The notes beneath the pieces are model-generated. The model saw only the letters and a program-made list of their open reading frames with translations, made no database searches and was not told the DNA's origin. From the NCBI RefSeq assembly GCF_000355905.1, contig NZ_APLF01000011.1, positions 1 to 64,000 of the forward strand: DNA of 64,000 nucleotides, in the 5' to 3' direction. The translations under genes were made by a program, and so were the position numbers. Shown here piece after piece: positions 1,772 to 53,804 of the stretch (positions within the stretch are counted from its first letter, which is position 1; every line of letters begins with the position of its first letter). Origin of the DNA: Psychroflexus gondwanensis ACAM 44 (GTDB lineage: Bacteria; Bacteroidota; Bacteroidia; Flavobacteriales; Flavobacteriaceae).

Positions 1772-2432
1772 GATTTAAATATTTTAAGAATTATATCCTA
1801 AATATACTAGCCTACATAAGGTTTTGAAATGATATTCGTCATGCTTAATATCAAAACTGATCATTTACTTCAAAAGGCAATAGTTAATTAGTTATAAAGG
1901 AAGGGGGCTTGTTGAGTTGAAATTATACTACAAATAGGATAATGACTCGATTGAAAAATCAGTTGAAAGTCATTTCAACGTTCACTAAGATAAAGATCAA
2001 CTTGACTCCCATACAGTCAGCAAGGATCTTCTTCACCCAAAAGTCAATTCTGATGTGGAAGAGATTTTGGATAAGGTAGAGTATAGGGAGTTGGAAGTTT
2101 AGGTTGAAAAAAGCCAGATAAACCTTTTGTAAATAAATCAATGGCTCCGTCAGCGGAAATCAATAGCCAAGTTTAAAAGCCATTGATGAGATGTTGAAAA
2201 TTTGGTTGATAAATTTTAAATGCGAGAATTTACTCTGCGATTACATCTCAAAGCCATTCAATCCAACAATCAATTTTCTTACATTCTTTTAGCACCAATT
2301 GTTTATCTCTTCTTTCAAGCATCTAAGTGTAGGCGGCTTTCATACTTTTTGATCAAGTCCATCGGTTAAAAATACACATCTTAAGTACAATCGTTTTTTT
2401 GTAACTTACTTGCTAATTAAAACACAAGATTT
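1772..2432. other. Intergenic stretch, mostly unexplained
   Basis: About 660 bases between the divergent WG-repeat and GEVED genes. Both strands show short open stretches (for example a 60-codon frame at 1959-2141 on the minus strand) but none resembles a known protein or has a convincing start. The sequence TGATATTCGTCA at about 1830-1841 is one base off the palindrome found in the 38-47 kb stress locus. Confidence 0.35.
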
Positions 2433-31499: not shown

Positions 31500-31926
31500 G
31501 ATTTGTAAATGTTACACAACTCGTTATATCAATACAACACTACACATTTATCTGAAATTACTCCTGGATAAACTAACAAAAAAAATCAGGTTTGAATAAT
31601 ATCAATACTAGGTTGTGTTTACTAAATTAATACATAAAAACTGCACCCACCACTAGAATTATCCTTTATGAGCTGTTTTTTGATCAGTAGGTCCCTTCTT
31701 TAAAATATAGTGCTATCAGCTTGCTCTTGTTTTATAACTCTCCTTCGACTCGGACTCATTTTTAAAAGCCTTGTCGCATAAACTTATAGCATAAATAGGC
31801 TTGAGGCGCTTGATCCCTAGCTTCTTTCTTTAAATGAAGCTATTGGTTCTTAATTATGAATCTTAACAACTGACCAATATCATTTCTTGCTGAGCTAAAG
31901 CCATTTACTTTTAGTCCAGATAAAGG
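31500..31926. other. Intergenic stretch without recognised content
   Basis: About 425 bases upstream of the Mla operon. It must contain the operon promoter, but no clear -7/-33 pair, hairpin or relic was recognised. Confidence 0.35.
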
Positions 31927-36364: not shown

Positions 36365-36443
36365 GCTTCACTTTAGTTGAGAAATGTCATAGGATTTTAC
36401 AGAATTAATAGTTAAGTTTAAACTGAAATAAAAATTAAAAGCT

Positions 36444-36755
36444 ATGAATATCAATATCCAGTTTGTCAAAGTGGAGACTAGTGAAAGCTTGAGTGAGTTT
36501 ATCACCGAGAAACTTCAAAGGATTTTTAAGAAATACGAATGGATAATTCGTATAGACGTCTTTATTAAAACCGAGAATGATCCTACCGAAATGGGAAATA
36601 TCTGCGATATGGAGGTTAGCCTTCCTGGCCCAAAACTATTTGCAACCTCCAATGAAAAGAATTATGAAATGGCCGTAAAAGAAACTATTAGTGATATTGA
36701 GAGACAACTCAAAAAACGGAAAGCGAAATTTACAGATCAAAATATATCCTCTTAG
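36444..36755 (+). CDS. hpf: HPF/RaiA-family ribosome hibernation factor, short form
   Basis: A 103-residue protein of the sigma-54-modulation/S30EA family, the short form without the dimerisation domain. MNINIQFVKVETSESLSEFI, then KKYEWIIRIDVFIKTEN and AVKETISDIERQLKKRKAKF are typical. It binds the 30S A/P sites and inactivates ribosomes in stationary phase or stress. It is followed by a strong terminator and is a single gene. Confidence 0.92.
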   Translation: MNINIQFVKVETSESLSEFITEKLQRIFKKYEWIIRIDVFIKTENDPTEMGNICDMEVSLPGPKLFATSNEKNYEMAVKETISDIERQLKKRKAKFTDQNISS

Positions 36756-37008: not shown

Positions 37009-37416
37009 CTACTCTTTCTCAAAAAGCAGCCTTAATTTTGTAATCATGATAAGTTCGCTTTTATTTGTTCCCCCCAAGGCATCAGTTATGGTTTGAGCCG
37101 TTTTTAAAATAAGACTTTTCTTTTTCTCTGTAAACAGAGTTTTATGCTCCAAATAAAAATTTACAAAGTTTTTATAACACTCTTCAGAATCCATACGCTC
37201 ATAATCAAACCAGTTAAACACGATGGAAATTTGATTAGCAGCATTGGTATTGAATTCATTATCGTAGTCGCTTTCGCTTTTCCATTCTTTTTCAACAATT
37301 TGAACTAAGGCCTTATATTCTTCTTCTTTTACGAGTTGGTCTGATGCTGAAATCGCATAGAAAAGCTCGCCAAGTTTTTGGTAAAAATATAATTCTGTCT
37401 TATGTATCTTTTCCAT
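37009..37416 (-). CDS. TerB-like helical protein
   Basis: About 135 residues. ATG 37416 (MEKIHKTELYFYQKLGELFY) is preferred: the upstream ATG at 37476 lies inside a long inverted repeat and would add a non-conserved segment. The protein is all-helical with YAISASDQLVKEEEYKALVQIV, the TerB-type pattern in which acidic residues after the first helix may bind metal. Proteins of this kind occur singly in many flavobacteria; the function is unknown. Confidence 0.7.
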   Translation of the reverse strand: MEKIHKTELYFYQKLGELFYAISASDQLVKEEEYKALVQIVEKEWKSESDYDNEFNTNAANQISIVFNWFDYERMDSEECYKNFVNFYLEHKTLFTEKKKSLILKTAQTITDALGGTNKSELIMITKLRLLFEKE

Positions 37417-37471
37417 TAGTTCTATAAACCAAGTTAGTATATAACTAGATGTGAGTTTAAGCACTTTATTG

Positions 37472-37543
37472 AGCAATTATAAACCTGTTTAAATCCGTAC
37501 ATTCTACTATCTATTGGAATTTTTAAGCAGGTTTATAATTGCT
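37472..37543. repeat. Long inverted repeat between the TerB-like and lipoprotein genes
   Basis: Perfect 16-base arms AGCAATTATAAACCTG (37472-37487) and CAGGTTTATAATTGCT (37528-37543). Pairing extends inward for about six more bases with one mismatch, leaving a loop of about 28 bases. It lies downstream of the lipoprotein gene and could end its transcript, although no T-run follows. Confidence 0.75.
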
Positions 37544-37577: not shown

Positions 37578-38267
37578 TTAATATTCTGTAGCACTCCAAT
37601 TAATTGGATTTGGGTTAAAGGTAGCTGTGCCGCTCATCGTATTGCCTAAAAGAGTTCCTGTAAATAGATAGTAATCGTTGTTAGTGGTATCGGTATCAAT
37701 ATCATAAGTTAGTATATTTCCATTTAAAGACCAGGTTCCATAGGAGGTATAAGTCCCAGGCGAGCTAGGTTCATCATAAAGCGTAGTTCCATCTGGATTA
37801 AAAGTGACATCGCCATTCGCTGTTTGACCATTGTCATAAGTAATTAAAAAATCCCACATAGTGCCATCTAAACTTGATGTACTAAAAGATTGTTGTGCAC
37901 CATAGCTTGTTCCTGCTGTAGATTTATTATCACTATTGGTAGCATAAATTCTAAAATAATAGGTCGTATTAGCAACTAAATCAGTAATTGTACTTGTAAA
38001 GGTATTTGATGATTCTGTAGTTTTATCGTCATCAATTGTAGGATTTTCACTAGTACTCCAGCAAACACCACGAGAAGTGATTTCATTAACTCCTTCAGAG
38101 GATACACTTCCGCTTATTTTTATTGAAGTGTAATTGGCTTCTAAATTACCACTCGTTGTTTCATTTGTTATAGTTGGAGCAAATAATTCATCTGTATCGT
38201 CTGACTCACAGCTTGAAATTGAAATGATAGATAGTAATACAAAAGCTTTAAAAATATGTTTTCTCAT
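37578..38267 (-). CDS. Lipoprotein with Fn3-like module and C-terminal beta domain
   Basis: A 229-residue lipoprotein: signal ending SIISISSC (cysteine 20). Residues about 30-130 form an Fn3-like module of the type common in Bacteroidota surface proteins (SSEGVNEITSRGVCWSTSENPT, then NTTYYFRIYATNS). Residues about 135-229 are a lipocalin-like/META-type part (LDGTMWDFLITYDNG, TWSLNGNILTYD, LLGNTMSGTATF). It is surface-exposed with an unknown ligand. Confidence 0.82.
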   Translation of the reverse strand: MRKHIFKAFVLLSIISISSCESDDTDELFAPTITNETTSGNLEANYTSIKISGSVSSEGVNEITSRGVCWSTSENPTIDDDKTTESSNTFTSTITDLVANTTYYFRIYATNSDNKSTAGTSYGAQQSFSTSSLDGTMWDFLITYDNGQTANGDVTFNPDGTTLYDEPSSPGTYTSYGTWSLNGNILTYDIDTDTTNNDYYLFTGTLLGNTMSGTATFNPNPINWSATEY

Positions 38268-38510: not shown

Positions 38511-38522
38511 TGATATTCATCA
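38511..38522. promoter_or_regulatory. TGAT-N4-ATCA palindrome upstream of the PAS kinase
   Basis: TGAT-ATTC-ATCA, centred 32 bases before the ATG of the histidine kinase gene. One of five perfect copies in the stress locus; this one probably mediates autoregulation of the kinase and receiver-CRP pair. Confidence 0.7.
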
Positions 38523-38548
38523 GGTTTATATTTACGTATCTTTAAAAA

Positions 38549-40057
38549 ATGGACGTATTTAAAAAAGGGACTAATATTTTTAAAATTCTTTCTGAAGCAG
38601 TTTCAGAAGGTATTGTTATCGTAAATACCTCTCACATTATCGTGGAGACCAACGACTCCGCCAATCAGATTTTCGGATATGAAAAAAAAGAATTGGTGGG
38701 GCAGCATTTGGATATTCTCATTCCCAACCAATACCGTCATGGGCATAATGAGCACGTGAGTGGGTTTATGGAAAAAGGGCAAAAGCGACAGATGGGCCGA
38801 GGGCGTGATTTATACGGCCGCCGCAAAGATGGTAGTGAATTCCCTGTTGAAGCAGGTCTTAATCCTTTTAGTGTTTATGAGAATGATTATGTGATGGCCC
38901 TAGTCATAGATATTTCGGTAAGAAAAAAAGCTGAACAGGAGTTGCAACATTGGGCAAAAATATTCAACGAATCTCTTAACGAGATTTTCATTTTTGATTC
39001 TAAAACGCTTCAATTTTTAAATGTAAATAAAGGAGCTTTAAAAAATATAGGCTATTCACTTGAAGAGCTTAAAACCATGACTCCTCTGGACATCAAGCCA
39101 GATTTTGATAAAGCTCAGTTTGTAGAAAAAATCACACCGCTGCTCGAGGATTCTCTGGAAAAGTTGAAATTTAATTCTGTCCATAAACGGAAAGATGGCA
39201 CTCTATATCCTGTGGAAGTTCACCTTCAGAAATCATCTTTGCGAGAAAATGACATGCTGGTAGCTATAATACTCGATATTACAGAGCAGGAAAAATACAC
39301 CCAGAAACTAGAGGAAACTGTTGACCAACGTACGCGTCAACTTCAAAAAGCCTTAACAAAAGAACAGGAACTAGGAGAACTAAAGACCAAGTTTTTGTCC
39401 TTGGTAGCTCATGAATTTAAAACGCCTCTTAGCGGCATAATGACCTCTGCGACTTTAGCTGGAAAATACCCCAAGGAAGAGCAGCAAGAGAAACGTGAAA
39501 AACATTTAAAAACGATTCGAGGTAAGGTCAAGTATTTGAATAATATCATCAACGATTTTTTATCCATAGAGCGTTTAGAAAGTGGAAAGTTTACTTATTC
39601 ATTTTCAAAATTTCCTATTAGCAAAGTGGTAAATGAAGTTATTTATGATGCAAACATGCTTTTAAAAGAAAACCAGCATATTGAATATCCAGACCAGATA
39701 GATGCAATTTATTTAAACTTCGATGAAAAGATTTTAGAACTTATATTAACCAACCTCATCAATAATGCTATTAAGTATTCTTCTGAAGAGTCTACCGTTA
39801 ATATTGTAGTTGAAGAAAATGAGGGTACATTAGTTTTTTATATTTGCGATGAAGGGATTGGAATTCCTGAAGCAGAACAGAAATATATTTTCAACAGATA
39901 TTTTAGAGCAGAAAACGCTCTATTGAATCAAGGAACAGGTATTGGTCTAAATATTGTAAAAACCCACCTAGAAAATTTAGGAGGGACCATTACTTTTACA
40001 AGTATTGAAGGAAAGGGCTCAGAATTTAAGGTGAGCATCCCGTTAGAGACCTCTTAA
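38549..40057 (+). CDS. PAS-PAS sensor histidine kinase
   Basis: A 502-residue soluble kinase without membrane spans. PAS1 at about residues 10-125 (IVETNDSANQIFGYEKKELVGQ), PAS2 at about 130-250, a coiled linker (ETVDQRTRQLQKALTKEQELGELKTKF), the H-box LVAHEFKTPL (histidine near 288), and an ATPase domain with NLINNAIKYSS, DEGIGIP and GTGIGLNIV. PAS domains of this type may sense oxygen or redox state through a cofactor. The gene for its presumed partner starts nine bases downstream. Confidence 0.93.
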   Translation: MDVFKKGTNIFKILSEAVSEGIVIVNTSHIIVETNDSANQIFGYEKKELVGQHLDILIPNQYRHGHNEHVSGFMEKGQKRQMGRGRDLYGRRKDGSEFPVEAGLNPFSVYENDYVMALVIDISVRKKAEQELQHWAKIFNESLNEIFIFDSKTLQFLNVNKGALKNIGYSLEELKTMTPLDIKPDFDKAQFVEKITPLLEDSLEKLKFNSVHKRKDGTLYPVEVHLQKSSLRENDMLVAIILDITEQEKYTQKLEETVDQRTRQLQKALTKEQELGELKTKFLSLVAHEFKTPLSGIMTSATLAGKYPKEEQQEKREKHLKTIRGKVKYLNNIINDFLSIERLESGKFTYSFSKFPISKVVNEVIYDANMLLKENQHIEYPDQIDAIYLNFDEKILELILTNLINNAIKYSSEESTVNIVVEENEGTLVFYICDEGIGIPEAEQKYIFNRYFRAENALLNQGTGIGLNIVKTHLENLGGTITFTSIEGKGSEFKVSIPLETS

Positions 40058-40066
40058 TATACAACT

Positions 40067-41116
40067 ATGAAAACAATACTTTTAATAGAAGATGATAGCG
40101 CATTGAGGGAGAATACAGCAGAGCTACTAGAACTCTCAGATTACACGGTACATTCAGCCGCTAATGGAAAAATAGGTATCGAAGTTGCCAAAAAACAACT
40201 ACCAGACCTTATTATTTGTGATATCATGATGCCAGAAGTCGATGGCTATGGGGTTTTGGAAGCGGTTTCTTTGGAGCCTACCACCACTCACATTCCCTTT
40301 ATTTTTCTTTCAGCAAAAACCGAACATAAAGAAATACGAAAAGGAATGGATCTTGGCGCTGACGATTACCTCACCAAACCCTTCGAAGAAGAGGATTTGC
40401 TAAGTGCTATTGAGAGTCGGCTCGCTAAAGTTAAAATTCTTTCAACGATGAAAGAAACTCCTTCCCATACTAATGAAGCTGAAGAAGATGTTCGGAATCT
40501 AAATGAGCTAAAAAATCTTTTTGATGATACCGGAGAGATTTTGAAGTTTAAAAAGGGAGAAGTTATTTTTAAAGAAAGTGCGCCGTCTCATAAAATATTT
40601 CTTATTCTCAATGGGGTTGTTAAAAGTCATAAAATGGAGGAAAATGGTAAAGAGCTTATTACAGCCTTGTACAAACCTGATGACTTTTTAGGGTTTACCT
40701 CTTTTACAGGTAATATTCCATACCAAGAAACAGCTACTGCTGTAGAAGAAGTGGAATTGGCGGGTATCTCAAAAAATGAGTTAACTGCTATTTTAGCTCA
40801 AAATCAAAATGTCTCGTTGGAATTAATGAATCTCCTTACAGAGTCTGTTTCTGAAATAAAGAAGCAGTTACTGCAAATGGCTTACAGTTCAGTGAGAAAA
40901 AAAACAGCACAAACCCTACTTCAGTTTGCTTTTCTATTGAATAAAAAACCAGAGGATGCTATAAATATTTCTAGAAGTGATTTGGCAAGCGTAGCGGGCA
41001 TAGCTCCAGAAAGTTTGATAAGAACTCTGTCTGAATTCAAGAAAAAAGGATTGATTGAAATAGCAGGCCGTAACATAAAAATTCTTCAATTGGAAAGTTT
41101 GGCAGAAGTACAATAA
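40067..41116 (+). CDS. Receiver-CRP/FNR fusion regulator
   Basis: A 349-residue fusion: a receiver domain (acidic pair E8/D9, acceptor D52 in LIICDIMMPEVDG, lysine in LTKPFEEED) at residues 1-125, a cyclic-nucleotide-type beta-barrel at about 150-265 (FKKGEVIFKESAPSHKIFLI), and a Crp helix-turn-helix at about 275-345. The recognition helix reads APESLIRTLSEF; its E-x3-R pair matches FNR/CRP, and the absence of Arg before Glu fits FNR-like reading of TGAT half-sites. There is no N-terminal cysteine cluster, so it is controlled by phosphorylation rather than by its own iron-sulfur cluster. Confidence 0.93.
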   Translation: MKTILLIEDDSALRENTAELLELSDYTVHSAANGKIGIEVAKKQLPDLIICDIMMPEVDGYGVLEAVSLEPTTTHIPFIFLSAKTEHKEIRKGMDLGADDYLTKPFEEEDLLSAIESRLAKVKILSTMKETPSHTNEAEEDVRNLNELKNLFDDTGEILKFKKGEVIFKESAPSHKIFLILNGVVKSHKMEENGKELITALYKPDDFLGFTSFTGNIPYQETATAVEEVELAGISKNELTAILAQNQNVSLELMNLLTESVSEIKKQLLQMAYSSVRKKTAQTLLQFAFLLNKKPEDAINISRSDLASVAGIAPESLIRTLSEFKKKGLIEIAGRNIKILQLESLAEVQ

Positions 41117-41125
41117 TCCTTTAGT

Positions 41126-41137
41126 TGATTTTTATCA
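41126..41137. promoter_or_regulatory. TGAT-N4-ATCA palindrome upstream of UspA (41.2 kb)
   Basis: TGAT-TTTT-ATCA, centred 48 bases upstream of the start codon of the next UspA gene. Confidence 0.7.
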
Positions 41138-41179
41138 TATTTATAAGTCGTTGACATCGATACTTTTGTTCCCACAATA

Positions 41180-42019
41180 ATGACGATGCAGCATATTTTA
41201 ATACCTACCGATTTTTCTCAGCATGCGTGGAACGCTACGAGCTATGCTTTACAGTTTTTTAAAAGTGTAAATACCACTTTTCATTTTTTACACATAGAAA
41301 CGCCAAACGACCTAAGTAAGAATCCTTTGCATTACGATGACCTTATTTCTACAAAGATAATTCCGGAAAAAAAGATTTTAAAAATGAAAGAATGGATGCA
41401 AAAAGTGTCCACTTACGATACTTCAGTCAATCATAATTTCAAGCAGGAAAGTGTAAAGTCCTTTTTTGTAGAGGCTATAAAAACGTACATCATCAAGCAT
41501 TCTATAGATTTGTTGGTTATGGGGTCTAAGGGATGTTATTGCCTTACAGGTAAGACTATTGGCAGTAAAACAGCCAAGGTTATTACACGAGTAAAATGCC
41601 CTGTGTTTATAATTCCAGAAAAAGCTGTTTTTAAAAAACCAATTCATATCGGTTTCCTTACCGATTTTAATATGGTTTATAAAAATAAGGTTATGCAGAC
41701 TTTGCTGGAGGTGTCTCAAACTTACAAATCGTCAATTAATGTCTTGCGAGTAGCAGGGGCTAAAAAAATTTTAGAGGATTCTCAAAATAACAATCGAGAG
41801 CTTCTCAAAGACCAATTGAAAGAGGTTTCTCATAGCTTTCATGTCATAGAAAATCCAAACTTGGAAACGGCGGTTCAGTCCTTCGTAGATGTTATGCAAA
41901 TTGATATGATCGCAATGATTGCCAAAAATTTAAACCTTTTTCAGCGTCTACTATTTAAACCAAAGGGTCCACAAAAAAACCATCCTATGCAGGTTCCATT
42001 TTTGGTTTTGCACGAATAA
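41180..42019 (+). CDS. Universal stress protein, two-domain
   Basis: A 279-residue protein with two UspA folds. The first domain has ILIPTDFS and the ATP loop MGSKGCYCLTGKTIGS (G-x2-G-x9-G-S intact); the second is degenerate. ATG 41186 is an alternative start, closer to the family norm. It is preceded by a TGAT-N4-ATCA site and follows the receiver-CRP gene by 63 bases, so it is a likely target. Confidence 0.92.
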   Translation: MTMQHILIPTDFSQHAWNATSYALQFFKSVNTTFHFLHIETPNDLSKNPLHYDDLISTKIIPEKKILKMKEWMQKVSTYDTSVNHNFKQESVKSFFVEAIKTYIIKHSIDLLVMGSKGCYCLTGKTIGSKTAKVITRVKCPVFIIPEKAVFKKPIHIGFLTDFNMVYKNKVMQTLLEVSQTYKSSINVLRVAGAKKILEDSQNNNRELLKDQLKEVSHSFHVIENPNLETAVQSFVDVMQIDMIAMIAKNLNLFQRLLFKPKGPQKNHPMQVPFLVLHE

Positions 42020-42042
42020 AAAATGCATTGCATAGGCGATTA

Positions 42043-42054
42043 TGATATTTATCA
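42043..42054. promoter_or_regulatory. TGAT-N4-ATCA palindrome upstream of the UspA pair
   Basis: TGAT-ATTT-ATCA, extended to the 14-bp palindrome ATGATA-TT-TATCAT (42042-42055). It lies about 170 bases before the next UspA start. Confidence 0.7.
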
Positions 42055-42222
42055 TTTTACAATCGACAGAGGTGAGTAATTTTAATCCCCTATTAAGGAT
42101 TTAAAGCTCTATGCTACAAGTCAGACTTTCCAAGGTTGAGCTCGAAATTGTGAAATTAGGTGACGAATTCATCTTTGGTCGGTTCGTCTTAAAGTTCTTG
42201 AATAAACTTAAAAAATAACAAC

Positions 42223-43068
42223 ATGCTAAAGATATTGATTCCTACAGACTTCTCCGAAACTGCAAAAAATGCAATACAATATGGTTTGGAGCTATTCAAA
42301 CATCAGGAGAGTGAATTTATAATTATGCATGCTTATGCAGATGAGGTGTATAAGAATGGGATGGAAATGGATCAAGAATCGTTCAATGTGTTCAAAGAAA
42401 ACACCTGTCTGAAAGCGGAAAGTCAGCTACAAAACGAGGTGATAGAATTTTCTGAGCTTTCTCCAAATTCTAAACATACCTTTACTTACGAAGCCTGTTT
42501 TGGAAGCTTAGTGGATGAGACCAATGATAGTGTAGAAAGGGAAAATATCGACCTTGTGATTATGGGAACCAAAGGGGAGACCAACAATAAAGAGATCTCT
42601 TTTGGTAGCCACACACTCCAAGTTATAAAATATATTAAATGCCCAGTTTTAGCAATTCCAACAGGCTTTAAAGAGACCTCTCTTCACACTATCGGTTTTG
42701 CGACCGACTATATGCTTCCTTTTAAAAAGCGAGAGTTAAGATTACTGAGCACCTTGGCGATGCAGCTCTATGCCGTTATTTACATGGTATTTATCTCAGA
42801 TTATAAAAGCTTATCTCGAAGACAACAAGACAATCGTTCCTTTTCAGAATACTGTTTAAGAGAAAACAAAACAGACTTTATCCAGGAAACTGGGAAAAAT
42901 ATTACTGAAGGAATAAATAAAGTATTACAAGAACAAAATTTCGACATGTTAGTGATGGTGAATCAAAGGCATTCGTATCTAGAAAACTTGCTTTATCATT
43001 CTACTATTGAAAAAATAGGCTTACAAATTAAGATTCCCTTTTTAGTCTTACAGAATCTAAATCGCTAA
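42223..43068 (+). CDS. Universal stress protein, two-domain
   Basis: A 281-residue two-domain UspA. The start MLKILIPTDFSETAKNAIQYG and the ATP loop MGTKGETNNKEISFGS (G-x2-G-x9-G-S) are intact in the first domain. The second lacks the loop. It is separated by 16 bases from the following UspA gene and so is co-transcribed with it. Confidence 0.93.
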   Translation: MLKILIPTDFSETAKNAIQYGLELFKHQESEFIIMHAYADEVYKNGMEMDQESFNVFKENTCLKAESQLQNEVIEFSELSPNSKHTFTYEACFGSLVDETNDSVERENIDLVIMGTKGETNNKEISFGSHTLQVIKYIKCPVLAIPTGFKETSLHTIGFATDYMLPFKKRELRLLSTLAMQLYAVIYMVFISDYKSLSRRQQDNRSFSEYCLRENKTDFIQETGKNITEGINKVLQEQNFDMLVMVNQRHSYLENLLYHSTIEKIGLQIKIPFLVLQNLNR

Positions 43069-43084
43069 CTCAACACTTGATATC

Positions 43085-43933
43085 ATGAAACGAATACTCT
43101 TGCCTACAGATTTTTCTGATAATGCCTATAACTCCATACAATACGCATTGCAAATGTTCAAAGAGGATAGTTGTGAATTTTTTATTCTACACACCTATAC
43201 TCCTGTCATGATTTCATCTGGAAGCATGTTGGATAGCGAAACAGCATTATCTCTTCATACCATAGCAGAAAAAAGTGCTCAAAAAAAGATGAATGCTCTT
43301 TTGGATAAGATTCAGAGTCAGTTTCCAAACCCAAAACACAGGACAAAAGGGCAGGTTTCCTTCAATTTACTGCTCCCTGAAATGGAGAACTTGATTAACG
43401 AAAAGAATATAGGTGTTGTAGTGATGGGTACTCAAGGAGCTACAGGAGCTAAAGAGGTCTTTATAGGAACACAAACCATGTATGCCATCAAGAAATTGAA
43501 TTGTCCTTTATTGGCCGTACCTGCGAATTTTGACTACGAAGCTCCCAAAGATATTTTGTTTCCCACAGACTTTAATCTAAGGAAAACCAACACATATTTA
43601 ACGATGCTTCGCGAACTTTGTAATAGTCACGTTTCTCGTTTGCATATTTTAAATGCGTATTATGGTTATCCACTCACTGATGCTCAACTTGAAACCAAAT
43701 CTTTTTTAGACCATTATTTCATCCATACCGCACACTTATTTCACCTAGGTGAAGGCGGAGACGTACTTGAAGCTATACAGCAATTTCAGATAAAGATTAA
43801 GACCAATCTGATGGTAATGATTCATAATAAACATAATTTTTTAGAAAATATGCTTTTTAGACCTGTTATCAATCAAGTTGTATATCACACTCAGGTCCCC
43901 TTTTTAGTGATTCCTTCTGAAGAAAGACAATAA
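43085..43933 (+). CDS. Universal stress protein, two-domain
   Basis: A 282-residue two-domain UspA, starting MKRILLPTDFSDNAYNSIQYA, with the ATP loop MGTQGATGAKEVFIGT intact in domain one. Domain two begins near ILFPTDFNLRKTN and is degenerate. It is the third UspA in a row; the differences between the three are too large for a recent duplication. Confidence 0.93.
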   Translation: MKRILLPTDFSDNAYNSIQYALQMFKEDSCEFFILHTYTPVMISSGSMLDSETALSLHTIAEKSAQKKMNALLDKIQSQFPNPKHRTKGQVSFNLLLPEMENLINEKNIGVVVMGTQGATGAKEVFIGTQTMYAIKKLNCPLLAVPANFDYEAPKDILFPTDFNLRKTNTYLTMLRELCNSHVSRLHILNAYYGYPLTDAQLETKSFLDHYFIHTAHLFHLGEGGDVLEAIQQFQIKIKTNLMVMIHNKHNFLENMLFRPVINQVVYHTQVPFLVIPSEERQ

Positions 43934-44335
43934 GGTCAGTTTTCAATCTTAGAAGGCTATTTTGAAATACATTAGTATTCCTAGAAATCAATTGATATGG
44001 CTAATGGAGACTGATAAATATCATAGTTCACAAGACGTATCTATTATATTTTTAATGCTATAAATACTAATGAAGGGTGTCTTTGAAAAAGAGCTTTTAT
44101 GATCACTATGCCTAAAAGAAATTAAGGACGTTTCCGTGACTAGAATCTAATCTATTTTTAGAGGCTTTTGCTTAAAGGGGTTTGTTTTCCTAAGATTTTG
44201 TAGCCTTAAAAAATTTGATCTTGATAAAGAGACCTTAAATTTTTAGCATTTGTTTTTTCAGTTTTCTTATAACATCATAAATACAAATATCACCTTCATT
44301 TTTTGTCATTTTTACGAGTTTAATAGTTTAAAATC
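43934..44335. other. Intergenic stretch upstream of the ATP-cone nuclease
   Basis: About 400 AT-rich bases with one TGAT-N4-ATCA palindrome at 44012. No ORF, hairpin or relic was recognised. Confidence 0.4.
44012..44023. promoter_or_regulatory. TGAT-N4-ATCA palindrome upstream of the ATP-cone nuclease
   Basis: TGAT-AAAT-ATCA; with its flanks it is the reverse complement of the 42043 site at 13 of 14 positions. It is about 315 bases from the next start codon, further than the other sites. Confidence 0.6.
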
Positions 44336-45172
44336 ATGAAAGATAAAAGCTTTAAAATCATCAAGTCTTCTGGGGAAAAGGCAGATTTCTCTTTGTCTAA
44401 GCTAAGGAGGAGCTTATTCAGTAGTGGCGCCGATGAATTAACGGTAGATAATATCCTTAATGTTGTTCGAGACGAATTGTATCAGGGTATTTCTACTAAG
44501 GAAATTTACAATAGGGCTTTCGCCTTATTAAAGAAAAGTAAATCGATTTATGCCTCTAAGTATAAATTGAAAAAAGCCATCTACGAATTAGGGCCTACTG
44601 GATTTCCTTTTGAAAAATTTGTAGGTGCACTAATGACCTATTCTGGCTACAGTGTAAAAATTGGAGAAGTTTTACAAGGGAAATGCGTCTCACACGAAGT
44701 GGATATTGTTGCTATAAAAAACGGAGAACATATTGTAGCTGAATGTAAATTCCATAGTGCAAAAACAAACACTTGTAATGTAAAAGTACCCTTGTACATC
44801 AACTCGAGGTATCAAGATATTATCGCTGAAAAAAAGAATACAAAAGAATGTCCTAACGAGGGGTGGGTAGTAACCAATACACGTTTCACTTTAGATGCTA
44901 TCACCTTTGGCTCATGTGTTGGACTTTATTTATTAAGCTGGGATTATCCCAAAGACAACGGCTTAAAAGATCGCATAGATAGGTTAGGCTTATATCCCGT
45001 TACCGTCTCCACACTTATCACTAATAGAGAAAAACAATTTTTATTGAGCAGAGATGTCGTGCTCTGCCGTCAATTATTAAACGATAGTTTTTACCTAGAT
45101 CATTTGGGTATTTCAGAAACGAGGAAAACAAAAATACTATCTGAAATTTCAATGCTCTGTAACACACATTAA
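44336..45172 (+). CDS. ATP-cone plus restriction-endonuclease-like protein
   Basis: A 278-residue fusion. Residues about 5-90 are an ATP-cone (IKSSGEKADFSLSKLRRSLFSSGA, then IYNRAFALLKK), the nucleotide-sensing module known from NrdR and class I/III ribonucleotide reductases. Residues about 95-210 have a Mrr/PD-(D/E)XK core: FEKFVGALMTYSGYSVKIG, HEVDIVAIKNGEHIVAECKFH (D-x(n)-E-x-K). This would make a nuclease gated by ATP/dATP levels. It stands one base upstream of a beta-CASP hydrolase gene. Confidence 0.88.
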   Translation: MKDKSFKIIKSSGEKADFSLSKLRRSLFSSGADELTVDNILNVVRDELYQGISTKEIYNRAFALLKKSKSIYASKYKLKKAIYELGPTGFPFEKFVGALMTYSGYSVKIGEVLQGKCVSHEVDIVAIKNGEHIVAECKFHSAKTNTCNVKVPLYINSRYQDIIAEKKNTKECPNEGWVVTNTRFTLDAITFGSCVGLYLLSWDYPKDNGLKDRIDRLGLYPVTVSTLITNREKQFLLSRDVVLCRQLLNDSFYLDHLGISETRKTKILSEISMLCNTH

Positions 45173-45173
45173 A

Positions 45174-46544
45174 ATGAACACTATAAAAATCCATTTTTTA
45201 GGAGCTTCAGAAACAGTAACAGGATCTAAATTTCTATTGGAAACTCCTGAGCAAAACATACTTGTAGATTGTGGGATGTTTCAAGGTATAAAAGCCCTTA
45301 GAGAGCAAAATTGGCAGGACCTACCTTTTGAGGTTTCTTCAATTGACGTGGTCTTATTAACCCATGGTCACTTAGACCACACCGGTTATTTGCCAAGACT
45401 TGTAAAGCAGGGTTTTAAGGGCAAAATCATCGGGACCTTGCCTACGTTGGAAATTACTAAAATTATCCTGTTGGATAGTGCCAAGATCAATGAAGAAGAT
45501 ACAGAACGCGCTAATAAGGAAGATTATACCAAACACCATCCAGCTTTACCGTTTTATACCATAAAAGATGCGGAGCGGACTTTAAAGATGTTTAGCTCAA
45601 CAGAAAAAGATAAATGGTACACACTTTCAGAACATATAAAATTCCGATTCAAATATAATGGACATATCATCGGTGCCACTTTTATTGAGCTAGAGATGTT
45701 TGGTGAAATGTTTGTGTTTTCTGGAGATATAGGAAGACAAGAAGATTTGCTTCTTAGGCCTCCACAAAAGCCTCAACGAGCAGATTACCTGTTTTTAGAA
45801 AGCACCTATGGTAATAAGCTTCATCCAAGAGATAGTGTGTCTGAAAAACTTATAGAACTCATCAACAAAACAGTTCATAATAAGGGGATTTTGATTATTC
45901 CATCCTTTGCTGTCGAACGCCTCCAAACCTTAATGTTTCTGTTATGGAAGCTTCATGATGAACACCGAATTCCAAATATCCCCATTTTTATAGATAGCCC
46001 GATGGGTAATAATGTACTTGGTGTTTTTGAACGGTTTGCAGCTTGGCATAAAATTCCACCTGCCGAATTTTTTGCTATGAAACACCGAATGAATATTATA
46101 GCCTCCTATAAAGAAACTTGGGAAACTATAGATGACCCTAGACCCAAAATAGTGATTGCAGGCAGCGGTATGGTGACTGGAGGTAGAGTATTGACTTACC
46201 TTAAGCAGCTCGTCGATAAGAAAAATACAAGTATTTTATTGGTGGGATACCAGGCTGAAGGGACTCGTGGTCGACAATTGTTGGAGGGGGCTCATGAATT
46301 GAAATTCTACGGAAAATATTACGATGTAAATGCCGAAGTTCACCATATAGAGAGCTTGTCTGCCCATGCAGATCAGGCCGGTATTTTGGATTGGTTAAGC
46401 GAACTCAAAAACACTCCCAAACGTACATTTTTAATTCACGGAGAGCCTACAGCTCTTCAAACCCTTAAAGTTAAGATTCAGGATACTTTTTCTTGGGAAG
46501 TGACGATTGCAAAACACAATCAAGTTTTGGAAATTTCGGTCTAA
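45174..46544 (+). CDS. Beta-CASP metallo-beta-lactamase-fold hydrolase (RNA-processing type)
   Basis: A 456-residue MBL-fold enzyme. The metal motif is LTHGHLDHTG, followed by a beta-CASP insertion and the late motifs VFSGDIGR, LESTYGN, IPSFAVER, IAGSGMVTGGR and VHHIESLSAHAD, as in bacterial CPSF73-like RNases. It probably acts as an RNA endo/exonuclease. It starts right after the ATP-cone nuclease stop (TAAAATG), so the two are one unit. Confidence 0.9.
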   Translation: MNTIKIHFLGASETVTGSKFLLETPEQNILVDCGMFQGIKALREQNWQDLPFEVSSIDVVLLTHGHLDHTGYLPRLVKQGFKGKIIGTLPTLEITKIILLDSAKINEEDTERANKEDYTKHHPALPFYTIKDAERTLKMFSSTEKDKWYTLSEHIKFRFKYNGHIIGATFIELEMFGEMFVFSGDIGRQEDLLLRPPQKPQRADYLFLESTYGNKLHPRDSVSEKLIELINKTVHNKGILIIPSFAVERLQTLMFLLWKLHDEHRIPNIPIFIDSPMGNNVLGVFERFAAWHKIPPAEFFAMKHRMNIIASYKETWETIDDPRPKIVIAGSGMVTGGRVLTYLKQLVDKKNTSILLVGYQAEGTRGRQLLEGAHELKFYGKYYDVNAEVHHIESLSAHADQAGILDWLSELKNTPKRTFLIHGEPTALQTLKVKIQDTFSWEVTIAKHNQVLEISV

Positions 46545-46696
46545 ATCTTTTTAGAAAATCTCTTTATTTCCTTTTTAGTCGAAGAAGCTAAATTGCTTTT
46601 AGTAGTCTCAACAGATTATCTATAGCGGTTTAATTAATTCACCAGGTTGAATTGCTTTTTTAGTTCAATTGGTATTTCAGATAAGTGTCTCTAAAC

Positions 46697-46708
46697 TGAT
46701 AATTATCA
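46697..46708. promoter_or_regulatory. TGAT-N4-ATCA palindrome upstream of Hsp20
   Basis: TGAT-AATT-ATCA, centred about 71 bases before the Hsp20 ATG. A spacing of this order suits activation from a CRP-type site. Confidence 0.7.
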
Positions 46709-46773: not shown

Positions 46774-47220
46774 ATGTCTTTAGTAAACTATAACAGTAGA
46801 AGAACTCCGTGGTTTAATGGCGGGGTTGAAAAATGGTTAGGAAATGAGGAGATCTTTCTCGACACTTTCTTCGACCGAAAAGCCAAATTGCCAGCGATGA
46901 ATATAAAGGAAAATCCTATTCATTTTGAAATAGAATTGGCCGTACCTGGCTTCGATAAGGAGGATATTGAAGTGAGCTTGGAGAACGATATCTTGCATAT
47001 TCGAGCAGAAAAGAAAAATGAAATGGAAGAGGAAAATGAAAATGGCTATACCCATAAGGAGTTTAGTTACCATCCCCTAAAGCCTAAACTTCAGATACCA
47101 AAATCGGTCAACCAAAACAAAGAAGTGAAGTCCAACTACAAAAATGAAGTGCTCAAACTCCAACTCACCAAAAATGAGGACGCTTCAAAACCAACTAAAA
47201 AGAAAATAGAGGTAGTCTGA
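46774..47220 (+). CDS. Hsp20/alpha-crystallin small heat shock protein
   Basis: A 148-residue sHSP. The alpha-crystallin domain runs from about residue 40 to 132 (FEIELAVPGFDKEDIEVSLEND, then LHIRAEKK), with a lysine-rich C-terminal tail; the usual G-x-L is replaced by NEVLKLQL. It is an ATP-independent chaperone. Its position in the Usp locus behind a TGAT-N4-ATCA site suggests control by the receiver-CRP protein rather than a heat-shock factor. Confidence 0.92.
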   Translation: MSLVNYNSRRTPWFNGGVEKWLGNEEIFLDTFFDRKAKLPAMNIKENPIHFEIELAVPGFDKEDIEVSLENDILHIRAEKKNEMEEENENGYTHKEFSYHPLKPKLQIPKSVNQNKEVKSNYKNEVLKLQLTKNEDASKPTKKKIEVV

Positions 47221-47284: not shown

Positions 47285-47917
47285 ATGAGATATTTAATCG
47301 TTTTTATAAGTGTTTTAAGCTTCGCTACTTTTTTGATAGGGTGCCGTTCTGCGACACTTATCCATGATTATAAAAACCAAGATATCAAAAGTTTTCAGGC
47401 TAGTAGACTACTTGTCGTTGGGATTTCAGCAGATAAAGAGGCAAGGCAATTGTATGAAACAACACTGGTCGAATCTTTAAAAAAAGAAGGGGTAAATGCT
47501 TTAAAAAGCATCACCTTCTTTGAAAACTCCTTTACAGACCAAAAGCAATCTCTTCAACAACTTAAAGCCATTGAGAAAAAGTTACTTAGGGCTAGGGTTG
47601 ATGCCGTCTTATTTACAAAAATCACAAATCGAAAAGACAGAGTCACTTTGGTAAACGCTTATCAAAACTTCGCACAATCTTATCAAACCTTTAAAAATTA
47701 CTATTATAATAATCAAAGTGCTTACTTAGAGAATAAGCATGAACAAGTCTATACCATTGAAACCTCTCTTTTTTGTATTTGCCCCGGACAAGAGCGCGAA
47801 TTAATATGGCGAGGAGAGATGGAAGTTATAGAGAGCAAAAGACTAAGTCGAAATATACATCGCTATAAATCTTTACTTTTTAAAACCCTCAAGCAAAAAA
47901 AACTAGTATTGAACTGA
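47285..47917 (+). CDS. Lipoprotein of unknown function
   Basis: A 210-residue lipoprotein with signal FISVLSFATFLIGC (cysteine 20). The mature part alternates strands and helices (SRLLVVGISADKEARQLYETTLVESLKKEGVNA), similar to periplasmic proteins that begin with a regulated-turnover or CsgG-like fold, but I cannot name the family. The stop overlaps the start of the dehydrogenase gene, which indicates coupling. Confidence 0.7.
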   Translation: MRYLIVFISVLSFATFLIGCRSATLIHDYKNQDIKSFQASRLLVVGISADKEARQLYETTLVESLKKEGVNALKSITFFENSFTDQKQSLQQLKAIEKKLLRARVDAVLFTKITNRKDRVTLVNAYQNFAQSYQTFKNYYYNNQSAYLENKHEQVYTIETSLFCICPGQERELIWRGEMEVIESKRLSRNIHRYKSLLFKTLKQKKLVLN

Positions 47918-48906
47918 TGAATGTATTGATTTACAGTGCGAAGCCTTTCGAAATTTCCTTGATAAAAGAAGAGAATAAAGGTAGGTATGCAGTAAGCTTT
48001 ACAGAGAAACGGTTAAGCTTAGTTACCGCTAAGCTAGCTATGAACTATGATGCGATTTCAATCTTCTCTGCAGATGATGCTTCTTCTGAAGTCCTCGAAA
48101 AGTTAAAAGCTATGGGGATTCACTACATCACCTTGAGATCTACGGGACACGATAATATCGATTTGAAAAAGGCAAGGCAGTTAGGCCTTAAAGTGGCTAA
48201 TGTGCCAAGTTATTCCCCAAATTCTATTGCAGAACACGCTATAGCACTATGTTTGACTTTCAACAGAAAGATTGTTAAGGCACAACACCAAACCTTAGAA
48301 TATAACTTTCTCTTAGATGATTTGATTGGCTTCAATCTACATCAAAAAAAGGTGGGAGTAATGGGAACAGGGAGTATTGGTGAAGTGCTCATCAAAATAT
48401 TACATGGCTTTGGATGTTCTATTTTAGCAAATGATATACATAAAAATGAACAGTTGATAAAGGATTATAAGGTTCAATACGTCACTAAAGAAGTCATTGC
48501 TGAAAGCGCAGATATCATTTTTATATGTTTGCCTCTCAATAGTAATACTCGTTATCTTATTGATAAAGATTATTTGCATCAGTTGAAAAAGAAACCAGTT
48601 CTTATAAATATTGCGAGGGGAGCCATCGTGCATACAGAGGAACTTTTAAAAGCTTTGGACGCCAATGTGATAAGCGGTTATGCCACGGATGTATACGAAT
48701 TTGAACACGGGGTGTTTTTTTATGACCGTTCTAAGGAGATACCCGAAGATCCAATATTACACCAACTGCTTTGTCATTCTAAAACACTAGTCACCCCACA
48801 TCAAGGCTTTGCGACTAATGAAGCTTTACAAGCTATTATTTCAACAACTTTTAAAAACTTGAACGCTTGGGAAGCAGGAAAAGATTCTGCTTATGAATTG
48901 TCCTAA
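47917..48906 (+). CDS. D-2-hydroxyacid dehydrogenase (D-lactate dehydrogenase-like)
   Basis: A 329-residue NAD-dependent dehydrogenase. The cofactor motif GVMGTGSIGEVLI is at about residue 145, and the catalytic triad Arg (NIARGAIV), Glu (VYEFEHG region) and His (VTPHQGFATNEAL) can be seen. It probably reduces pyruvate to D-lactate, serving fermentation or redox balance under low oxygen. A paralog lies at 56.3 kb. It converges on the UspA gene, with overlapping stops. Confidence 0.9.
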   Translation: MNVLIYSAKPFEISLIKEENKGRYAVSFTEKRLSLVTAKLAMNYDAISIFSADDASSEVLEKLKAMGIHYITLRSTGHDNIDLKKARQLGLKVANVPSYSPNSIAEHAIALCLTFNRKIVKAQHQTLEYNFLLDDLIGFNLHQKKVGVMGTGSIGEVLIKILHGFGCSILANDIHKNEQLIKDYKVQYVTKEVIAESADIIFICLPLNSNTRYLIDKDYLHQLKKKPVLINIARGAIVHTEELLKALDANVISGYATDVYEFEHGVFFYDRSKEIPEDPILHQLLCHSKTLVTPHQGFATNEALQAIISTTFKNLNAWEAGKDSAYELS

Positions 48907-49745
48907 TTATCCTTGTGAAGAAATAGTAATGGGATAAGAGTTCCGTAAGCTAATTGCGAAGTGTCTGAGCCAAAGAATAAGCGCTTAAGGAAAGTTTCCT
49001 TTTCAATACTTACAGCATGAAGGTCTATTTTCAATAGTTGTGTAGTCGTATTTAAGACGATCAATCCAGGGATGGTGTTGAGGTGAAAGTAGGTGTAGGG
49101 ATAATCTTGAAAAAGCTTTTGGATACTTTGGTTATCTTCTTTTTCACTTGCTTCTGTTTGGCTGGTATCATCTAATTGGAGAACATTGAGTTGACACTTA
49201 TGCATAGTTAAGATGTCCTTGAAAATATCTATCCCCTTAAAGGTCAATTTCTCCTCATCTTGCATAGAGAATAAGACTTCTTTAATACTTGAGTATGAAT
49301 AATGTTCTGGGACCGTGAGTGTTGGGCAATCGACGTATCTTATCACTTGTAATGTATTACTCCCGAAAATCACCTCCGAGGCATCTGAGGCGCCGTTATT
49401 GCCCATTATGATGAGGTCTATAGCATTAAGCTCAACGGCTTGCTTGATGGCCGATACAAAATCATCATAATCAAACAATTCATGAAAAGTATAGGCTTGA
49501 GATTTGGTTTTTTTACTCAAAGCTTTGACTAAATTGTGAATTAAAGCTTTATTATTTTTTGAGATGCTGTCGTAAACGCTATCACTTTGTGAACCTGCAA
49601 CGAGATCCGCAGTGATGTATTCTGACGACTTTTGAATATTGAGGATGTAGAAATGGCACTCTTCATTTTCGAAAAATTTCATCGCATATTCTATTGCGTT
49701 CTTAGAATTTTTTGAAAAGTCTGTAGGTAAAAGGATGTTTTTCAT
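48903..49745 (-). CDS. Universal stress protein, two-domain
   Basis: About 280 residues. ATG 49745 (MKNILLPTDFSKNSKNAIEYA) is preferred; an in-frame ATG four codons upstream is possible. The first domain keeps the ATP loop MGNNGASDASEVIFGS. It is transcribed toward the dehydrogenase gene. A near-match TGAT-AATA-GTCA at 49798 lies at about the same distance from its start as the site in front of the 41.2 kb UspA gene. Confidence 0.92.
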   Translation of the reverse strand: MKNILLPTDFSKNSKNAIEYAMKFFENEECHFYILNIQKSSEYITADLVAGSQSDSVYDSISKNNKALIHNLVKALSKKTKSQAYTFHELFDYDDFVSAIKQAVELNAIDLIIMGNNGASDASEVIFGSNTLQVIRYVDCPTLTVPEHYSYSSIKEVLFSMQDEEKLTFKGIDIFKDILTMHKCQLNVLQLDDTSQTEASEKEDNQSIQKLFQDYPYTYFHLNTIPGLIVLNTTTQLLKIDLHAVSIEKETFLKRLFFGSDTSQLAYGTLIPLLFLHKDN

Positions 49746-49797
49746 TTGTTGAAACATTTATACTATATAAAAGTACTATTTAAAATTTAGCTACACA

Positions 49798-49809
49798 TGA
49801 TAATAGTCA
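49798..49809. promoter_or_regulatory. Near-match to TGAT-N4-ATCA upstream of UspA (49.7 kb)
   Basis: TGAT-AATA-GTCA, one base off the palindrome, about 46-58 bases upstream of the two possible starts of the UspA gene on the minus strand. Confidence 0.4.
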
Positions 49810-52321: not shown

Positions 52322-52325
52322 TTTA

Positions 52326-53804
52326 TTACTTTTTGTAAGTGAGGACTGTTTTATGATGAGGCTGAGACAAGTTGAGCAGCTTAACGTAGAGCCATGGTAT
52401 TTTTCTGTACACTCCCAATTTCATAATAAAGAAACCGAGTAGGAAGATGATACCGAAAGTGATTTGTAACACGGTTAGAGAATGCGGGACTTCAATCATT
52501 GGCATTTCTATCATGATCGAGGTAACTACATTAAATAAAAGTGCATAAAGTCCTATCCCAGCTATAAATACTGCACTGGGTACTATTACTTTTTGTACAA
52601 ATGTGAGACTTTGTTCTTTCACAATATTGTAGGTGGCTTGCCCAACGGTAATGGCGACGATAAGCGTTAAAAATATACTGCTATCGGTTAAGTTGGTTTT
52701 TCCTGTAAGTAAAGTAAATAACCCAGCACCTAGCGCTCCGAAAATCAATACCACTACAATTTGCATTGGATTGATTTTAAGGTCTATTGGCTTTCGAGGG
52801 GCGTTATTTGCAATTTCTTCTCCAGAAGATAAAAATAGATAGGCTTTATAGAAGCCGTGTAAGATCAAGTGGACCACTGCAGCATTAAAAAAGCCGAGTC
52901 CGCATTGCATAATCATAAATCCCATTTGGGCGATGGTAGAACAAGCCAATTTCTGCTTAACATTTACCTGAAGTAATTTTGTGAACTGCGCTATGATAGC
53001 GGTCAGTCCTCCGATGATAAAAATAAGAGTTAAGGTGTTGGAGGCAATGACTACTGTGGAAAACAAGGCCAATAATATCCCCGAACCATTTACAAAACCT
53101 GCATGCATCAATGCAGAGGCTGGAGTTGGAGCAGTCATTGCAGAAAGCAGCCAACGGTGAAAGGGATAAATAGCCGACTGTATAATGGCAGCTGTGATGA
53201 TAAGTAGAGCGGCAATAAGAAGAAAATAAAAGGGTATTGACTCTAAATTATCGACAATGCCTGATAATGTATAGTGATTGGTTAAAAAGGCAAGCAAAAT
53301 AACCCCAATACTCAAAAGCAGCGTTCCTGCTAGGAAAAACTTTTGAGAAAACTTTTGAGCCTCTCTGGCCTCTCCCCAATCTGAATTGACGCCTATCAGT
53401 CTTGCCATAAAAACACCCATGGCAAACCAAGATAGCAATAGAGCTAAAATATGATTCGACATGACGAAGACCATAACAGACCCCGTAAATCCCAAACTTA
53501 ATAAGGTGAAGCGCTTGTGATACTTAAAGCCTTTGAGGTAATTTTTGGAATAAGTGCTTACAATTGCACTGAAAAAAGTGACAGTCGCCCAGATGAGAAG
53601 TGTAAATCCATTGATTCTGAAGGTATCAGTCCAATTCCATTGAGGTGTCTCGATCTGGTAATAGATAAGTGCACCCAAACTGGCTAGAAATAAGAGCCAA
53701 AGTAGGGGAGCAGCAATTTTAGAAATAACAGGATTTGAAGAGGTTTTAACAGGAGAGGTTAAAACTGATGGTGTTAGTGTGTTTGAGCTGGTATTCAAAG
53801 CCAT
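52326..53804 (-). CDS. dabB: DabB: NuoL-like membrane subunit of the DAB complex
   Basis: A 492-residue polytopic protein related to complex I NuoL / MrpA with about 13 helices. Typical proton-channel features include LLSAMTAPTPASALMHAGFVNGSG split over helices 7-8 and KLACSTIAQMGFM. Adjacency and order with dabA identify it as DabB and not a respiratory subunit. It drives the carbonic-anhydrase-like DabA with ion flux. Confidence 0.92.
   Translation of the reverse strand: MALNTSSNTLTPSVLTSPVKTSSNPVISKIAAPLLWLLFLASLGALIYYQIETPQWNWTDTFRINGFTLLIWATVTFFSAIVSTYSKNYLKGFKYHKRFTLLSLGFTGSVMVFVMSNHILALLLSWFAMGVFMARLIGVNSDWGEAREAQKFSQKFFLAGTLLLSIGVILLAFLTNHYTLSGIVDNLESIPFYFLLIAALLIITAAIIQSAIYPFHRWLLSAMTAPTPASALMHAGFVNGSGILLALFSTVVIASNTLTLIFIIGGLTAIIAQFTKLLQVNVKQKLACSTIAQMGFMIMQCGLGFFNAAVVHLILHGFYKAYLFLSSGEEIANNAPRKPIDLKINPMQIVVVLIFGALGAGLFTLLTGKTNLTDSSIFLTLIVAITVGQATYNIVKEQSLTFVQKVIVPSAVFIAGIGLYALLFNVVTSIMIEMPMIEVPHSLTVLQITFGIIFLLGFFIMKLGVYRKIPWLYVKLLNLSQPHHKTVLTYKK

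Follow-up and report, generated by a model that had tools for sequence, protein, structure and literature searches.

A putative low-oxygen regulon of a receiver-CRP fusion protein in Psychroflexus gondwanensis and its FNR-type promoter sites

DosR and OsdR, which control gene expression in mycobacteria and Streptomyces, are regulators of the NarL/LuxR type. To our knowledge, little has been mapped of how oxygen controls gene expression in the Bacteroidota. In Streptomyces, most usp genes cluster around osdK and osdR, as described in one study (PMC5069765). The CRP/FNR homologs of Flavobacteriales are treated as MalR-like in the accessible text of another (PMC8510549), in which the word "receiver" is not used. 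The present analysis concerns a stretch of 64,000 nucleotides (64 kb) from Psychroflexus gondwanensis ACAM 44 (contig NZ_APLF01000011.1, positions 1 to 64,000), referred to as the window, which contains a gene for a CRP-type protein fused to a receiver domain, a sensor histidine kinase gene directly upstream of it, and palindromes of the form TGAT-N4-ATCA. The system is probably a low-oxygen regulon composed of a FixL-like kinase and a fusion of a FixJ-like receiver with an FNR/FixK-like protein, in which the palindromes would serve as class II activator sites. No description of a receiver-CRP fusion of this kind or of its motif was found in searches of an open-licence full-text library; the domain architecture itself is presumably held in domain databases.

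The fusion protein belongs to the CRP/FNR superfamily, as its cNMP_binding and HTH_Crp_2 domains both score over the Pfam cut-off. In alignments of 20 and 24 fusion sequences (window protein included), the receiver residues E8, D9, D52 and K104 are invariant and T103 is nearly so, and by sequence the protein qualifies as a two-component response regulator. The recognition helix PESLIR carries the residues E315 and R319, which are invariant in both alignments, and has no Arg before the Glu, as in FNR and as reported in the initial annotation of this DNA. A conserved cysteine cluster is absent from the same alignments. The lone invariant Cys is C51 of the receiver, and the fusion is therefore FNR-like but not an Fe-S FNR. 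The AlphaFold model of the fusion contains the receiver, a CRP fold, a long helix (residues 247-290) and the helix-turn-helix, with a mean predicted local distance difference test score of 81.7 and a low predicted template modelling score (0.40). In a fold search the closest structures were those of the CRP family, FixK2 and FNR included, among the 50 matches listed.

A kinase match is located within 400 bp upstream of the fusion in 53 of 56 fusion loci taken from relatives. The first PAS domain of the kinase (PAS1) was compared with the PDB at E<=1e-6, and 13 of the 14 matches are FixL, DosP/yddU or a named heme PAS sensor. The His and Arg residues of FixL and DosP that have roles at the heme align with His66 and Arg86 of the kinase, and this His is conserved in 48 of the 54 rows of an alignment (one misaligned). 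The full fusion was found in 23 of 26 relatives of the same genus, the three genomes that miss it being 52%, 79% and 86% complete. Of 148 genomes sampled across the class, 73 carry the fusion, so it is not peculiar to the genome of the window.

The pattern TGATNNNNATCA (TGAT-N4-ATCA) matches exactly five times in the window, at 38511, 41126, 42043, 44012 and 46697, and all five matches are intergenic when judged against 59 open reading frames. An exact search thus agrees with the initial annotation, and the roughly two matches that it expected in 64 kb compare with a computed chance expectation of 1.98 (standard deviation 1.39); five or more matches were reached in 6 of 100 dinucleotide shuffles. 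Given a non-coding share of 21.8%, the probability that all five are intergenic is 0.218^5 = 0.0005. The broader form TGAYNNNNRTCA (TGAY-N4-RTCA) has 14 matches in the window against 4.35 expected, a number reached by none of 100 shuffles, and 10 of these matches lie between genes (binomial P 0.0001). In the whole genome there are 126 matches to the 8-base TGAT-N4-ATCA pattern and 64 to the reversed pattern. The plain pattern is no clean regulon marker by itself because this excess is just twofold, and the genome-wide count was rejected as proof. Real sites are told apart by a -7 box at a fixed distance. Two intergenic sites of the window, at 1172 and 26070, have no -7 box at the right distance and were left out.

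The usual gene order at the fusion loci of relatives is kinase, fusion, Usp. In 32 of the 56 loci a Usp match follows the fusion within 600 bp; these loci form the gap set, in which two gaps come from one genome (G004) and distances run to the start of the Usp match; the other 24 loci were excluded from the gap count. A tally of palindromes with 4-base arms and spacers of 0-10 bases in these gaps counted 2,816 palindromes and was topped by TGAT-N4-ATCA, which occurs in 17 of 32 gaps, against 6 for the runner-up and a mean of 0.26 (maximum 2) in 300 shuffles. The other 15 gaps carry the same palindrome with C replacing T beside the spacer, on one or both sides. The motif is accordingly corrected from TGAT-N4-ATCA to TGAY-N4-RTCA, which is kept in all 32 receiver-CRP/Usp gaps, 48-69 bp upstream of the Usp match.

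The consensus of the -7 box in Bacteroidota is TAnnTTTG, and a site centred near -40 is in the position of a class II activator. When five or more of the 6 fixed bases are required to agree, a -7 box begins 35 bp past the site start in 31 of the 32 gaps before UspA1 and in 31 of 36 fixI promoters. At the corresponding spacing of 23 bp, TAnnTTT(G/A) was found 28 times in loci L060-L079, 44 times in L080-L090, 15 times in 17 loci of distant Bacteroidota and five times in the window, whereas the means at 35 other spacings were 0.51, 0.29, 0.66 and 0.06, respectively. The composite TGAYNNNNRTCA-N23-TANNTTTG occurs 333 times in 60 genomes, compared with 4 times for a reversed control, and a looser composite without the final G occurs 11 times in the genome of ACAM 44, compared with once for the control. 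The arrangement of palindrome and -7 box looks like a class II activator layout. Its conservation in relatives, a check named in the initial annotation, and its fixed spacing uphold the existence of a real regulon, as had been proposed from the window alone.

Four HTH_Crp_2 proteins are encoded in the genome of ACAM 44: the fusion, a stand-alone FNR homolog (C3:9778-10473), a third protein with an E-x3-R helix (C19) and one with another helix. This inventory covers the CRP proteins that are recognised by the PF13545 model. Four Cys and an E-x3-R helix are present in the FNR homolog, whose gene is divergent to fixI; the same motif is found at fixI. At E<=1e-40, stand-alone FNR is absent from all 26 relatives of the same genus, several of which are incomplete (52-90%). 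The site before fixI is nevertheless kept in 24 of 26 FNR-less genomes examined (G033 and 25 of the genus). In G025, the sister species, all that is left of FNR at its place is a remnant covering residues 3-34, split over two frames, and the adjacent site is intact. In two FNR-less genomes, G020 and G022, two HTH_Crp_2 proteins each score over the cut-off and the fusion alone has E-x3-R; these genomes contain eight and seven composite promoters, respectively. Because FNR is missing while the sites remain, the fusion is most likely the protein that uses the sites in the FNR-less relatives of this genus.

The genes behind the composite promoters point to the content of the regulon. Near the fusions of L080-L090, 45 composite promoters were found, 44 of which have a downstream reading frame, at a distance of 45-191 bp in 43 cases and of 257 bp in the other. 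The downstream genes encode Usp (22), TerB-like proteins (7) and the ribosome hibernation promoting factor HPF (3), which make up 32 of the 44. Single genes encode Hsp20, MlaE, CcoN, the kinase and a lipoprotein like that at 47285-47917 of the window; seven match no reference, two of them thioredoxin-like by eye. A fixI match is present in 46 of 60 genomes; 43 loci were examined within 300 bp upstream, G039 and G048 were dropped as they have no fixI, and 37 of the remaining 41 genomes have the site. Three of the four misses (G013, G023 and G055) carry a one-mismatch site at 62-68 bp. A site of the composite kind also precedes fixS-ccoN in the genome of ACAM 44. Because the putative targets include Usp, TerB-like protein and HPF and sites precede fixI and fixS-ccoN, the set combines low-oxygen respiration with dormancy-type protection. 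The likely signal is low oxygen and not general stress, as suggested by the FixL-like PAS match and the sites before cbb3 genes. In several relatives a further sequence, ATTGATTTAAATCAAT, recurs some 6 kb past the fusion. It was rejected, as the copy in the one locus checked (L069) lies inside a 940-amino-acid reading frame that is infB-like by eye.

In the proposed mechanism, low oxygen would free the FixL-like heme PAS domain and the kinase would become active. The kinase would then phosphorylate the receiver of the fusion at Asp52, and the phosphorylated protein may dimerise on the long CRP helix (or a CRP dimer may be freed). The FNR-type dimer would bind TGAY-N4-RTCA, centred some 40 bp ahead of the transcription start, replace the -33 contact and bring RNA polymerase to the -7 box TAnnTTTG 23 bp beyond the site. 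Only the -7 box of the Bacteroidota promoter would be required, and in this lineage the dimer would mainly be that of the receiver-CRP fusion. The induced set, a DosR-like group of genes for survival at low oxygen, would include Usp, Hsp20, HPF, the TerB-like protein, the ATP-cone/nuclease unit and the cbb3 oxidase genes. A wider reading is evenly balanced between acceptance and rejection: a receiver-FNR fusion and a heme-PAS kinase may form, in roughly half of the class genomes sampled, a phosphorylation-switched master regulator of the low-oxygen response, which in one genus may have taken over the whole regulon of an Fe-S FNR with the sites unchanged and an FNR remnant left in one species.

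Several points weigh against this interpretation. The count of five copies in the window is by itself only suggestive and is not significant at the 5% level. In the distant Bacteroidota set, one other spacing has 11 matches. The genomes compared are related, so the counts are not independent. The Arg column of PAS1 is kept in only 33 of 54 rows, and the heme-PAS His is common among PAS domains for which heme content is unproven. Nor is the motif confined to genomes in which only the fusion could use it, as it precedes fixI in 13 of 15 FNR-carrying genomes with adjoining fixI (in one at 139 bp). Because the FNR homolog and the third CRP also have E-x3-R helices, the sites in the genome of ACAM 44 are not assignable from sequence alone. 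The assignment to the receiver-CRP protein is thus ambiguous for this genome, where the sites could belong to either of the other two, and depends on the FNR-less relatives that keep the sites. Among 148 genomes of the class, 37 have both fusion and stand-alone FNR, 36 the fusion only, 39 FNR only and 36 neither (Fisher P 1.0). Here FNR was counted at E<=1e-30 in 76 genomes, after 12 of 88 genomes matching through the fusion alone had been taken out. Because the two proteins are independent across the class, the replacement of FNR is limited to the genus and was perhaps a single event. A general mutual exclusion of fusion and FNR was suggested by 60 related genomes (2 with both, 24 with the fusion only, 15 with FNR only, 19 with neither; P 0.003) and was rejected, as it is not upheld in the 148 genomes.

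The alternative that survives best, with a prospect only a little short of even, is that FNR and the fusion, and perhaps the third CRP, share the motif and the regulon, so that the Fe-S state and the kinase signals would be summed. The presence of three E-x3-R CRPs within one genome, the coexistence of fusion and FNR in a quarter of the class sample (37 of 148) and the same composite promoter, which stands in front of cbb3 genes and recurs four times within the C19 cluster, are consistent with it. It is inapplicable to the FNR-less relatives; it overlaps the proposed low-oxygen regulon of the fusion and differs from it only for genomes with both regulators. In that C19 cluster, four composite promoters (G000:C19, L249-L252) lie near the third E-x3-R CRP, together with genes for a cytochrome c and a ScdA/hemerythrin repair protein and with two that, by eye, encode a globin and a hemerythrin. 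The cluster resembles a regulon for nitric oxide or denitrification.

Rather unlikely, and concerned with the signal alone, is the view that the signal read by the kinase is not oxygen (but redox, nitric oxide or another ligand) and that the regulon is one of general stress. Heme PAS domains are able to bind nitric oxide or carbon monoxide, Arg86 is replaced in part of the kinase family, and Usp and Hsp20 are general stress markers. The frequent sites before fixI, a cbb3 maturation gene, and that before fixS-ccoN argue for oxygen; this view would in any case be compatible with the assignment of the sites to the fusion. It is improbable that the sites in the genome of ACAM 44 belong to the stand-alone FNR homolog and that the fusion regulates otherwise or only co-binds. 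The cysteines and helix of that homolog, its position divergent to a fixI with the same motif and the fixI sites of FNR-carrying genomes would fit. However, FNR is missing throughout the same-genus relatives (with the incompleteness given above), and FNR-less genomes retain the site before UspA1 and fixI. The UspA1 site is moreover tied to the 3' flank of the fusion gene itself, and G020 and G022 have no other E-x3-R protein among those found by HTH_Crp_2, the other Pfam CRP models not having been searched. Chance matches, to which the shuffles that reach five copies and the modest genome-wide excess might point, are scarcely credible in view of the conservation in relatives, as at 41126, and the fixed -7 spacing, although their dismissal is weakest for 38511 and for the box-less 1172 and 26070.

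The sites, the proposed regulator genes and the putative targets of the window are listed in Table 1. The receiver-CRP regulon had been described with five sites only; three further sites (1830, 31871 and 49798) and the one-mismatch site at 36378 are now added.

Table 1. Sites, regulator genes and putative targets in the window; -7 box offsets are counted from the site start
Feature	Position	Strand	Details or basis
Site, minus reading TGAC-N4-ATCA (added)	1830..1841	-	start 70 bp before gene 1277-1771; -7 box TATATTTA at +35
Site TGAC-N4-ATCA (added)	31871..31882	+	56 bp before MlaE run; -7 box TACTTTTA at +35
One-mismatch site TGAG-N4-GTCA	36378..36389	+	66 bp before HPF; TAAGTTTA at +35
HPF, ribosome hibernation promoting factor (Ribosomal_S30AE), probable target	36444..36755	+	Pfam
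TerB-like protein, probable original target of 38511	37009..37476	-	divergent genes of relatives
Site of reversed polarity	38511..38522	-	-7 box degenerate: TATGTATA at +35
Sensor histidine kinase: PAS - PAS - HisKA - HATPase_c	38549..40057	+	Pfam; PAS1 FixL/DosP-like, candidate heme PAS, His66 and Arg86
Receiver-CRP fusion (Response_reg, cNMP_binding, HTH_Crp_2), proposed activator	40067..41116	+	Pfam
Putative activator site, class II	41126..41137	+	54 bp before UspA1; -7 box TACTTTTG at +35
UspA1, putative target	41180..42019	+	Pfam
Site of UspA2-UspA3 pair	42043..42054	+	180 bp before start codon; -7 box TAATTTTA at +34
UspA2 (42223-43068) and UspA3 (43085-43933), putative targets	42223..43933	+	Pfam
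Site of ATP-cone/beta-CASP metallo-beta-lactamase nuclease unit	44012..44023	+	324 bp before start codon; -7 box at +35
ATP-cone protein (44336-45172) and beta-CASP metallo-beta-lactamase nuclease (45174-46544), putative targets	44336..46544	+	Pfam
Hsp20 site	46697..46708	+	77 bp upstream of Hsp20; -7 box TATTTTTA at +35
Hsp20, putative target	46774..47220	+	Pfam
UspA4, putative target	48903..49757	-	Pfam
Site, minus reading TGAC-N4-ATCA (added)	49798..49809	-	start 52 bp before UspA4; -7 box TACTTTTA at +34

The units named in the initial annotation as lying behind the five palindromes are retained for UspA1, UspA2-UspA3, the ATP-cone/nuclease unit and Hsp20. The site at 38511 had been placed ahead of the kinase gene. 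Its flanks, however, are asymmetric and run in the opposite sense, so that the site faces away from that gene. In seven named relatives (L080-L086), the composite site at this place faces a divergent TerB-like gene 53-75 bp away, and the window protein at 37009-37476 is 38-50% identical to the seven divergent gene products. It gave no hit in Pfam and is here called TerB-like. A lipoprotein gene (37578-38267) now stands between the site and the TerB-like gene. The site at 38511 thus probably served the divergent TerB-like gene and not the kinase operon. In L083 the kinase gene lies behind its own composite site at 48 bp, and control of the kinase by such sites elsewhere is therefore still possible.

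Two of the added sites have counterparts in relatives. The site at 31871 precedes a gene run for MlaE, an ABC protein, MlaD, a peroxidase and cytochrome b561, and the MlaE gene of L080 (94% identical) likewise lies behind a composite site. The HPF genes of L080, L084 and L085 have a full composite site upstream. Outside the composite-promoter list, perfect TGAT-N4-ATCA copies were observed before the genes for the ribonucleotide reductase large subunit and hemA (G000:C18:42023 and C1:180135), which are possible further members.

The ATP-cone match of 44336-45172 scores 25.6 bits, where the Pfam cut-off is 25.8. The nuclease at 45174-46544 is best matched by the type VII CRISPR Cas14 and aCPSF1 models, far below the cut-off, and the ATP-cone/nuclease pair was found again in L063, L080, L084, L086 and L087. 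In the sister species G025, the segment 12324-12842 of L060 has no match to the genes for the ATP-cone protein, metallo-beta-lactamase nuclease, Hsp20 or lipoprotein. It retains the site at 12324, directly behind which lies a truncated match to a dehydrogenase, as a deletion would leave it. UspA4 is adjoined (window 49988-53804) by DabA and a co-directional second gene, probably dabB, and the best site-like match upstream of these two genes has two mismatches.

The promoter layout of site, 23 bp and -7 box can be scanned in any Bacteroidota genome, and the fusion is a candidate regulator in the 73 class genomes that carry it. The genus offers a natural case in which one regulator has apparently replaced another on the same DNA sites, and the sister species with the FNR remnant can be compared directly with the species of the window, in which FNR is intact.

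Among the described systems, NmpRSTU of Myxococcus xanthus resembles the proposed one: its heme-dependent sensor kinase pathway, induced by hypoxia, controls a cbb3 oxidase together with genes for a Usp and a hemerythrin, whereas it has a protoglobin-type sensor, a four-protein phosphorelay and an NtrC-like regulator (PMC11841059). DosS/DosT-DosR (DevR) of mycobacteria and OsdR-OsdK of Streptomyces share with the proposed system the two-component control of Usp and heat-shock genes at low oxygen (PMC5069765). The DNA-binding part of the fusion is HTH_Crp_2 and not of the NarL/LuxR type found in DosR and OsdR, and the DNA site is another one. FNR and ANR of Proteobacteria have the same E-x3-R helix, the TGA-N6-TCA palindrome, the class II position and microaerobic targets. 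Unlike FNR, the fusion has an N-terminal receiver, no cysteine cluster and Ile318 where FNR has Ser, and the outer base of its site is often C or A and not the T of TTGAT. The FixL-FixJ-FixK system of rhizobia similarly comprises a FixL-like PAS kinase, a receiver and a CRP/FNR-type activator with cbb3 targets. In that system a separate NarL-type FixJ activates a separate fixK gene, whereas here the receiver is fused to the FixK-like part in a single protein, with no intermediate regulator gene, and the putative targets centre on Usp, TerB-like protein, HPF and Hsp20 behind a promoter of the Bacteroidota type.

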